64,000 nucleotides of DNA from Desulfosarcinaceae bacterium (GTDB lineage Bacteria > Desulfobacterota > Desulfobacteria > Desulfobacterales > Desulfosarcinaceae). Below are positions 44,142 to 46,782 of the stretch, in pieces (position 1 is the stretch's first letter; each line of letters opens with the position of its first letter). The stretch lies in contig JASJCL010000003.1 of NCBI GenBank assembly GCA_030066015.1, positions 1 through 64,000 of the forward strand, given 5' to 3'. Position numbers and translations under genes: made by a program. The notes beneath the pieces were generated by a model. It ran no database searches, was not told where the DNA came from, and was given only the letters and a program-made list of their open reading frames with translations.

Positions 44142-45227
44142 CTAAACAGCCCGGTAACGCATGTGACCGTTGGTTCGCTGGCCAGCGAACTGCTCGTTTG
44201 CGGATTGGATGATGCTGGCCGTCGTCTCCCAATCGATGCAGGCGTCGGTGATGGAGATGCCGTAGGCCAGCTCCTTCAGATCCTCAGGGATTTTCTGGTT
44301 TCCGGCGTTGAGGTTGCTCTCCAGCATTATCCCGATGATGGCCCGGTTGCCGTCCAGACGTTGATTGATCACATCCTGCCATACCTGGGGCTGACGTCGA
44401 TAATCTTTGCCGGAGTTGGCATGCGAGCAATCCACCATGATGGCAGGGGGCAGGCCTTTCACCGTCAACGTATCAGCGGCTTGGGCGAGACTGACCGAGT
44501 CGTAGTTGGGGCGTCCACCGCCGCCCCTGAGCACCAGATGGGTCCAGGGGTTGCCCGTGGTCCTCACGACGCAGGTGCGTCCCTCAGGATCGATTCCGAT
44601 GAAATTCTGCACCGCACCCGCCGCCATAATGGCATTGATGGCCACGTTCAGATCCCCATCGGTGGCATTCTTGAAGCCCACCGGCATGGAGAGCCCGCTG
44701 GCCATCTCCCGATGGGTTTGTGACTCCGTTGTGCGGGCACCCACTGCGGCCCAGCAGACCAAGCCGGCGATATATTGGGGGGTGATGGGATCCAGCAATT
44801 CGGTTGCCGTTGGCAGCCCCATGGCCGTTATATCCAACAGAAGCTTGCGTGCTCGGCGCAGACCGGCCTCCATGTCGCAGGTGCCGTCCAAATAGGGGTC
44901 GTTGATCAGCCCCTTCCAGCCGACGGTGGTGCGCGGTTTTTCGAAATACACTCGCATGACCAGGTAAAAATGGTCCTTGACCCGATGTTGCAGGTCAACC
45001 AGCTTTCGGGCGTAATCAAGGGCAGCGGCTTCATCGTGGATGGAGCAGGGGCCGGTGATGACCATCAGCCGATCGTCCTTACCGGCGAGGATCTTCTGAA
45101 TGGTCTTGCGTCCCTCGATGACGGTTCGTTCGGAGGCCGGCGTCAGCGGCAGCTCCTTTTTCAGGTCACCAGGTGCGATGAGGGGAATAAACTGATCAAC
45201 GTGCAAATCATAAGTCTTGGTCGTCAT
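44142..45227 (-). CDS. aroF: 3-deoxy-7-phosphoheptulonate (DAHP) synthase, class I
   Basis: The 361-residue protein is a complete type I-alpha DAHP synthase of the AroFGH kind: VITGPCSIHDEAAALDYA (about 58), MRVYFEKPRTTVGWKGLINDP (about 92), GARTTESQTHREMASGLSMPVGFKNATDGD (about 163), IMVDCSHANSGKD and IGIMLESNLNAGNQ. It condenses phosphoenolpyruvate and erythrose-4-phosphate, the first step to aromatic amino acids. AAAGGGA precedes the ATG. The upstream leader peptide and attenuator show control by aromatic aminoacyl-tRNA supply. Which isozyme type (F, G or H) is not resolved; the symbol is by family. Confidence 0.95.
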   Translation of the reverse strand: MTTKTYDLHVDQFIPLIAPGDLKKELPLTPASERTVIEGRKTIQKILAGKDDRLMVITGPCSIHDEAAALDYARKLVDLQHRVKDHFYLVMRVYFEKPRTTVGWKGLINDPYLDGTCDMEAGLRRARKLLLDITAMGLPTATELLDPITPQYIAGLVCWAAVGARTTESQTHREMASGLSMPVGFKNATDGDLNVAINAIMAAGAVQNFIGIDPEGRTCVVRTTGNPWTHLVLRGGGGRPNYDSVSLAQAADTLTVKGLPPAIMVDCSHANSGKDYRRQPQVWQDVINQRLDGNRAIIGIMLESNLNAGNQKIPEDLKELAYGISITDACIDWETTASIIQSANEQFAGQRTNGHMRYRAV

Positions 45228-45286: not shown

Positions 45287-45325
45287 AAAACAGAAAAGCC
45301 GCAGGCTTTGGGGCTGCCTGCGGCT
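45287..45325 (-). terminator. Attenuator terminator in the DAHP synthase leader
   Basis: On the minus strand AGCCGCAGGC and GCCTGCGGCT form a perfect 10-bp stem with a 9-base loop, followed by TTTCTGTTTT. It lies 28 bases after the leader-peptide stop and about 60 bases before the aroF start, so it can abort transcription into aroF. Confidence 0.88.
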
Positions 45326-45352
45326 TCTTGCTGATAAGATTGGGTGTGGATC

Positions 45353-45424
45353 TCAGCGCACCTCAGACAGACCCGGCGGGTAATAAAAATACCAGAAATA
45401 GTAGCCGCGGGTCTGGAGGTTCAT
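45353..45424 (-). CDS. Aromatic-rich leader peptide of the DAHP synthase attenuator
   Basis: A 23-codon frame runs from ATG 45424 to TGA 45353, with GAGGA seven bases upstream. Residues 8-15 are YYFWYFYY: five Tyr, two Phe and one Trp in a row. That density is not expected by chance in GC-rich DNA, since these codons are AT-rich. By analogy with pheA and trp leaders, a ribosome stalled at these codons for lack of charged tRNA should prevent formation of the downstream terminator. The competing antiterminator pairing is not resolved; CGCGGCT in codons 6-8 can pair with the 5' arm of the terminator. Confidence 0.87.
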   Translation of the reverse strand: MNLQTRGYYFWYFYYPPGLSEVR

Positions 45425-45475
45425 GCGAGTTCCTCAACGACTGCGTAACGCTTCTGTACCATTATTGTCATTCGA

Positions 45476-45504
45476 CCTTTAACGAACTGCAATCCATCTG
45501 TCAA
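45476..45504 (-). promoter_or_regulatory. Candidate promoter of the leader-aroF transcript
   Basis: On the minus strand a perfect TTGACA (45499-45504) is followed after 17 bases by TAAAGG (45476-45481), a weak -10. It lies about 50 bases before the leader-peptide start. Confidence 0.45.
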
Positions 45505-45537: not shown

Positions 45538-46488
45538 TCAAGCCTCACACCATTGACCGCCATCAGCACAGGTGTCGACCTCGGCGGCCCGATTCTGCGT
45601 AAGGCGGTAGATGGCAACCAGCATGACTGCAGCGCTGATCCATTGGATGGGGCTGAGAAGATTCCCATTGATGAGATAATCAAAGACCACGGTGGAGATG
45701 GGGAAGCAGAGTTCGCACATTGTAGCCAAGTTGGCTTGGATATATCGCAGTCCCACATAGTATAGGAGAATCGCCCCGCTGCCGGTGGTGAGCCCGATGA
45801 TGGCGAAAAAGAGCCAATTGGTGGGAGTGGTGACCGCCAGTTGATCAAATTTGCCACTCGCAGCGACGATGAAGAGCATGATGAGGGTCGTGAAACCATA
45901 CCGGAAAAAGAGGGCGGTTCTGAAGTGCACCTTGTTGAGCACGCGTTTGCCGAATACGGTGGCGCTGCCGAAGCTGAATGCAGCCAGAAGGGCGTAGCCG
46001 GCTGCTGGAAGCATATGACCACTGTTCACTGTTGCCGGCAGATGCGTTTCGAAGGTGAGAAAGTAGCCGCCGGTGAGGGCGATGGCGGTCCAGAAGAGAA
46101 ATTGGCGCCCCAGGCGCTCTCCCAAAAGAATTCGGGCCAGCAGAATGGCGAAGATCGGCTGGAGTTTCTGAAGGAGGGCCACCACCGTGAGATGTTTAAA
46201 TTGCACCAAAAAGAGGGCTCTGACGATGGCCAGCGTACCGATGGCTCCACCGAAGAGGGCGACCAGAAAAAAGAAGAGCAGATCGCTTGCGGTAAGGGTG
46301 CGCAGCGCTTTGTATTCACTGAAAAGCAGGACCTGCATGCCGGCGAACGGCAGGGCGTGCAGCATGAATACCACCCAGGCGACATCGAGATTGTACAACC
46401 TCGGGGTCAGTACGACGCCATCGAACCCCCACATGGCAGCGGCGCTGCAGACCATCAAGACCCCGATATGAACCCGATTCTTCAGCAT
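45538..46488 (-). CDS. EamA/DMT-family transporter
   Basis: ATG 46488 (MLKNRVHIGVLMVCSAAAMWGFDG) has AAAGG nine bases upstream; a TTG at 46524 is less likely. The 316-residue protein has ten hydrophobic segments in two EamA halves, with ALLQKLQPIFAILLARILLGERL ending the first half and MCELCFPISTVVFDYLINGNLLSPIQWISAAVMLVAIY the second. Such carriers export or import metabolites, often amino acids. It precedes the aromatic-controlled aroF leader on the same strand, so an aromatic or related cargo is possible but unproven. Confidence 0.88.
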   Translation of the reverse strand: MLKNRVHIGVLMVCSAAAMWGFDGVVLTPRLYNLDVAWVVFMLHALPFAGMQVLLFSEYKALRTLTASDLLFFFLVALFGGAIGTLAIVRALFLVQFKHLTVVALLQKLQPIFAILLARILLGERLGRQFLFWTAIALTGGYFLTFETHLPATVNSGHMLPAAGYALLAAFSFGSATVFGKRVLNKVHFRTALFFRYGFTTLIMLFIVAASGKFDQLAVTTPTNWLFFAIIGLTTGSGAILLYYVGLRYIQANLATMCELCFPISTVVFDYLINGNLLSPIQWISAAVMLVAIYRLTQNRAAEVDTCADGGQWCEA

Positions 46489-46782
46489 TGTCGGCAACCT
46501 TTGAGATGTTTCAGAGGAGTACAATTCAACCGCATCGTAACGGGCCGCGGTCGCTATCAGGCGGAACCCGGCGGTGTCGGGAATCAGAACAAGTAGAAGT
46601 ACAGTTCCGGTGTTGTCAAGGGAAAAGCGGTTGCCTCGGGCGGCAGGGCCGCCCGATGGCCGGCGGACGCGCCGAAAGGATGCTCAAGGAGTAAGGATCG
46701 CGTGGCCCACCTGATCCGGCGCACCATGCCGCGGCACCCCTCCGATCACCGCCTCGGTGGGTGCCGCGGAAGCAGCCGGTGG

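Follow-up and report, generated by a model that had tools for sequence, protein, structure and literature searches.

The aroF gene of a Desulfosarcinaceae bacterium is very probably controlled by a trp-type ribosome-mediated transcription attenuator. This is a computational prediction whose basis, computed from the DNA, is a leader ORF, a set of alternative RNA pairings, their covariation, their conservation, and the order in which they fold. The window analyzed is the whole stretch of 64,000 nucleotides (assembly GCA_030066015.1, contig JASJCL010000003.1, positions 1 to 64,000 of the forward strand). A sequence-only reading had already located the element at 45287-45424, which indeed spans the leader plus the terminator; that it lies on the minus strand had gone unstated. 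The product of the regulated gene (45227..44142, minus strand) scores above the cutoffs of TIGR00034 (aroFGH) and NF009395, the former confirming that an aroF gene follows the hairpin, and the solved structures nearest to this type-I DAHP synthase are those of a Tyr-sensitive DAHP synthase (6agl/6agm). On the same strand, and beside aroF, there is an EamA/DMT transporter gene (45538-46524) whose product resembles YddG, an exporter of aromatic amino acids, only weakly, with a match below the cutoff.

The leader ORF (MNLQTRGYYFWYFYYPPGLSEVR, 23 codons; 45424..45353, minus strand, placed by exact sequence match) sits between the transporter gene and aroF. The Shine-Dalgarno sequence GAGGAA (45435-45430, minus strand) lies 5 nt ahead of its ATG, and the 23-residue peptide with its own ribosome site and the run YYFWYFYY that had been read from the letters is therefore confirmed. 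Codons 8-15 (TAC TAT TTC TGG TAT TTT TAT TAC) are the control codons and comprise 5 Tyr, 2 Phe, and 1 Trp. With 8/8 aromatic residues, the leader is unique among the 1116 small ORFs counted over the two strands of the window, where the runner-up reaches 5/8, and in a simulated control of 20 windows containing 31,216 small ORFs the maximum was also 5/8 and never higher. A chance ORF is excluded by this simulation together with the conservation among relatives described below.

The leader is followed by an intrinsic terminator (45287..45326, minus strand) that was identified by folding, pattern search, and covariation. Its GC-rich arms (45326-45316 and 45306-45296) form a 3:4 stem of 11 bp closed by a 9-nt loop, and the tail TTCTGTTTT, in which the U tract is interrupted, occupies 45295-45287. 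The terminator pattern occurs only here in the window, with 0 occurrences expected. The hairpin, its U-rich tail, and their order ahead of aroF had all been read correctly, but the stem is 11 bp long and not 10. Segment 1 (45405..45420, minus strand) and segment 2 (45355..45374, minus strand, at the end of the leader ORF) flank the aromatic codons within the ORF and pair strongly with each other, forming a protector helix (seen in the fold at -25.5 kcal/mol, z -3.2). Segment 2 can pair instead with segment 3 (45311..45333, minus strand), its antiterminator partner, which takes in the 5' arm of the terminator and a part of its loop. Both segments of this 2:3 pairing (GGG-U-CUGUCUG with CAGGCAGCCC) were delimited by duplexes, covariation, and footprint folding, and the pairing is mutually exclusive with both the terminator and the 1:2 helix. 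As in attenuators of the trp/phe type, a short translatable ORF with clustered codons for products of the pathway is thus combined with an intrinsic terminator before the gene. The search for a known Rfam family (including Trp_leader) or a T-box gave no covariance-model match at the gathering score, and the hits of Rfam models on the leader were at chance level (MIR8008 at 19.2 bits and Leu_leader at 14.8 bits, with gathering scores of 66 and 50, respectively).

The folding order was computed with an assumed ribosome footprint of 13 nt, counted from the start of the A-site codon. When the A-site was placed at any of codons 8-13, which frees segment 2, the 2:3 antiterminator (-26.1 kcal/mol) formed ahead of the synthesis of segment 4; a weaker one was obtained with the A-site at codons 14-15 and none with it at the stop codon, and without a ribosome the 1:2 helix formed. 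In the equilibrium fold of the full length the terminator was still favored even when segment 1 was omitted; switching must therefore be kinetic, as it is in other attenuators. The distance from the last aromatic codon to the stop is 7-8 codons in 81 of the 104 leaders compared.

The transcription start, the stalling, the termination in vivo, and the amino acid that dominates are what we infer from this basis, and the steps would run as follows. RNA polymerase would start upstream of the leader ORF, where a sigma-70-like promoter, TTGACA-N17-TAAAGG, is predicted (45476..45504, minus strand; PWM score of 7.8, with a weak -10 hexamer, TAAAGG); with a start near 45469, the RNA ending at the terminator would measure roughly 180 nt. 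When charged Tyr- and Phe-tRNA (here also Trp-tRNA) are plentiful, the ribosome would reach the stop codon and cover segment 2, which would leave segments 3 and 4 to pair and transcription to terminate before aroF. When one of these tRNAs is scarce, the ribosome would stall on codons 8-15 and mask segment 1, and the free segment 2 would pair with segment 3 before segment 4 emerges, allowing read-through into aroF. If the leader is not translated, the 1:2 helix would form and the terminator would win. Promoter-like scores upstream of 102 leaders exceeded those of shuffled sequences (p=7e-20, with the relatedness of the sequences ignored) and those of a control region, and the stretch from the terminator to the gene scored poorly, with no downstream promoter predicted.

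To follow the leader among relatives, AroF orthologs were collected from the relatives of this genome and from the order, and their upstream regions were scanned for small ORFs with at least 5/8 aromatic residues. Such an ORF was present at 22 of 24 loci in the first set (L005-L028) and at 70 of 76 loci from the order (L115-L190). Leaders are carried by about 104 distinct AroF loci from many genera, mostly of Desulfobacterales; the terminator is present at 104 of the 105 distinct leader loci compiled, and a second, tandem terminator shortly follows the first at 31 of 104 aroF loci (e.g. L024, L026, and L036). The proposed search for homologous leaders before DAHP synthase genes of Desulfobacterota has therefore been answered positively, the peptide and the hairpin being conserved across many genera. 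The same scan gave 0/68 for AroF loci outside Desulfobacterota, which rules out the leader as a general feature of AroF across bacteria, and 0/19 for distant AroF within the phylum, and no comparable leader was found at seven paralogs, one of which has an unrelated-looking 5/8 ORF. In the AroF tree the leader is confined to one clade of Desulfobacterota, with a few losses, and to one Latescibacterota locus. Orthologs without a leader are L008, L020, L118/L038, L125, and L138, as well as L143, L174, and L182; the last three, judged by eye, apparently lie inside operons, directly behind an apparent upstream gene. The Latescibacterota locus (L043, a metagenome-assembled genome) has the aromatic leader YRYFYFYFYY, a different terminator, and an AroF outside the main clade, and its leader may have arisen independently or by transfer. 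Three further loci (L058, L064, and L067) come from metagenome-assembled contigs that bear the names of Klebsiella pneumoniae or Akkermansia muciniphila; the AroF under the Klebsiella name lies far from other Gammaproteobacteria in the tree, and a binning or naming error is probable.

Covariation was measured in an alignment of 53 diverse sequences (A1). The 2:3 helix was paired in 87.5% of cells, with 34 cells showing changes on both sides versus 7.9 in shuffles, and the 3:4 helix in 93.5%, with 45 such changes versus 13; for both helices the signal collapsed in slid-register controls. Columns 38-41 pair with columns 101-104, which are located in the terminator loop, and the antiterminator is thus specifically supported. 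At aroF loci the own 2:3 duplexes were more stable than cross-species ones (p=2e-10), and so were the own 1:2 duplexes at 104 loci (p=2e-14), both values ignoring relatedness. The leader ORF, the 1:2, 2:3, and 3:4 pairings, the covariation of the latter two, the conservation, and the presence of promoter-like sequence upstream only support the ribosome-mediated attenuation first suggested for this site.

As to the amino acids that are sensed, the leader in the window can read all three aromatics, as had been claimed, but Trp is not conserved. All 104 aroF leaders contain Tyr and 100 contain Phe; because Trp codons are found in just 42 of the 104, the conserved signal is Tyr plus Phe. The central Trp position is often Arg or Gly in relatives, possibly one base away, as read off the peptides. 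Among codons for Tyr and Phe, the share of TAT and TTT is about 80% in the leaders versus 37-40% in eight ORFs of the window, whose GC content is 61%, and this preference may perhaps keep the stretch unpaired or slow the ribosome.

A covariance model extending from segment 2 to the terminator, and trained on aroF leaders only, detected the element in 106 of 118 genomes of the order and in 80 of 86 genera. Among its 117 matches, 43 lie at most 450 nt upstream of aroF and 48 lie upstream of ADTH synthase (ADTHS) genes, and reading locus by locus raised the number before ADTHS-like genes by at least five (L261, L262, L269, L303, and L315). Genomes without AroF typically carry the element before this non-homologous enzyme. 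The NCBIfam check of targets other than aroF covered two pheA, one aroE, and two ADTHS genes, and both ADTHS proteins scored above the cutoffs of TIGR01949 and NF005556. The leaders of ADTHS genes resemble those of aroF (e.g. MVHNRSGRYYFYYWYFFNTGLPGVR at L236), and their own 2:3 duplexes were again more stable than cross ones (p=6e-4, 36 loci). In 291 genomes, AroF was found in 102, ADTHS in 144, both in 3, and neither in 48, so that the two enzymes are nearly mutually exclusive (Fisher p=2e-36, not corrected for phylogeny).

The element also precedes other genes of aromatic biosynthesis. In the same genome as the window, pheA, encoding chorismate mutase/prephenate dehydratase and followed by an aroA-like gene, is preceded by an aromatic leader (...MHLFSGSFYVYFSRYFYPSGLPGVH), an antiterminator, and two tandem terminators (G000:C25:6642-6739, L253), and two further pheA genes have the element upstream (L306 and L310). 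By reading the sequences, it was also recognized before shikimate kinase-like genes (L304, L305, L307, and L312), before an EPSP synthase-like gene (L314), and before another kind of DAHP synthase-like gene (L309, L317, and L319). Two weak matches of the model, L271 and L272, were dropped as apparently unconnected to aromatic genes. These data led us to a broader proposal, held with distinctly less confidence than the aroF attenuator itself but judged somewhat likelier to be right than wrong: in Desulfobacterales, a single ancestral aromatic attenuator module would have remained where the aromatic pathway begins, the enzyme beneath it being swapped between AroF-type DAHP synthase and the non-homologous ADTHS of the alternative pathway. 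Copies would also have moved to pheA, to the genes for shikimate kinase and EPSP synthase, and to others, creating a Tyr/Phe(/Trp) regulon read by peptides. The first step of the pathway thus appears to retain one type of attenuator while the enzyme is exchanged. A common origin of the leaders would be favored by their shared GLPGVR ending and terminator arms, yet both are functional segments, and convergence is the alternative.

Leaders of other kinds were observed along with these. Upstream of trpE in the same genome (L221, G000:C70) there is a leader, MHIHTGRFWWWQANL, that has three Trp codons in a row and is accompanied by terminator-like hairpins; it is a separate, putative trp attenuator. 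A different, Phe-rich family of leaders (e.g. MIMSNFQNQKGPGYFYSYYCFFGFFSWLCGLDGGG) precedes another kind of ADTHS at L273-L279 and L283, apparently another attenuator type before ADTHS paralogs. The same covariance model also picked up a Leu/Val-rich leader, MHKISDVRMEEFMRLLSVVLLFLLGLLKGGVCLR, before a 2-isopropylmalate synthase-like gene (L316), a probable leu attenuator.

Three other explanations of the aroF leader were weighed against transcription attenuation. The one that survives best, itself very improbable, is translational control, in which stalling would expose or hide the ribosome site of aroF; leader-peptide attenuators of this sort are known for other genes, e.g. ermB (PMC8274638), but a 3:4 stem with a U-rich tail recurs across about 100 loci, the tandem second terminators mentioned above add to it, and the aroF start is located 59 nt beyond the tail. 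Slightly less credible still is that the hairpin merely terminates the transporter gene, whose end is 212 nt ahead of the stem and in the same orientation, and that the aromatic ORF is coincidental. This is unlikely because conservation already speaks against it, the leader recurring before AroF orthologs in many genera and the same element being found before ADTHS and pheA, where the neighbors are others; moreover, the aromatic ORF is far beyond chance, and segment 2, inside that ORF, covaries with segment 3. The weakest proposal, a T-box or riboswitch that binds tRNA or a metabolite and senses the amino acids with the ORF as an accessory, can draw on the T-box control of aromatic genes in other bacteria (PMC1262725) but is almost certainly wrong, since Rfam gives no match at the gathering score in the window besides a tRNA gene and the ORF itself contains segments 1 and 2.

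The predicted aroF attenuator has precedents. The aroR-aroF attenuator of Corynebacterium glutamicum has a leader peptide containing Phe-Tyr-Phe ahead of its DAHP synthase gene (Neshat et al. 2014, via PMC11802643; PMC4046766), and transcription rises under Phe limitation whereas Tyr availability reportedly has no effect (PMC11802643, PMC4046766). In Acholeplasma, comparative genomics suggested another case, the motif uORFC-13-1 upstream of aroF, consisting of an upstream ORF with one or more Phe codons before a terminator (PMC8632094). Attenuation at DAHP synthase, as read from the window, is therefore supported, but it is of a kind already known, with C. glutamicum aroR as an earlier case by the accounts just cited. 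In the open-access literature we found no report of such attenuation in Desulfobacterota, Desulfobacterales, or Deltaproteobacteria, nor of leader peptides before ADTHS. The new side appears to be a sensor common to the non-homologous first enzymes AroF and ADTHS. In an entire order of sulfate reducers, most of them uncultured, a classical attenuator would then set the first committed aromatic step through a single peptide that reads Tyr, Phe, and in some cases Trp. Conservation appears to be higher for the sensor than for the enzyme, as one leader-terminator is found ahead of either AroF or the unrelated ADTHS. It could therefore serve as an annotation marker, both for aromatic genes and for genomes with the alternative pathway, and it would provide a testable example of a regulatory element outliving the replacement of its enzyme. 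The mixed codons in the leader of the window would, in turn, allow the integration of several amino acids by one attenuator to be tested cleanly.

By its literature description, the leader of C. glutamicum, an actinobacterium, has three aromatic codons versus eight here, and the Acholeplasma motif, likewise compared by description (PMC8632094), is from another phylum and is defined by at least one Phe codon only. The trpL leader peptide of Sinorhizobium meliloti, peTrpL, also belongs to an attenuator but acts additionally in trans (PMC7298713), a role that nothing in the analysis of the aroF leader suggests. There is also a close likeness to trpL and pheL of E. coli, with which the aroF leader shares a short ORF with cognate codons, the 1:2, 2:3, and 3:4 segments, a U-tailed terminator, and a biosynthetic gene downstream. 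Unlike these (Rfam RF00513 for Trp), it belongs to another phylum, has no Rfam match, mixes Tyr, Phe, and optional Trp codons, and precedes the gene for the first common step.
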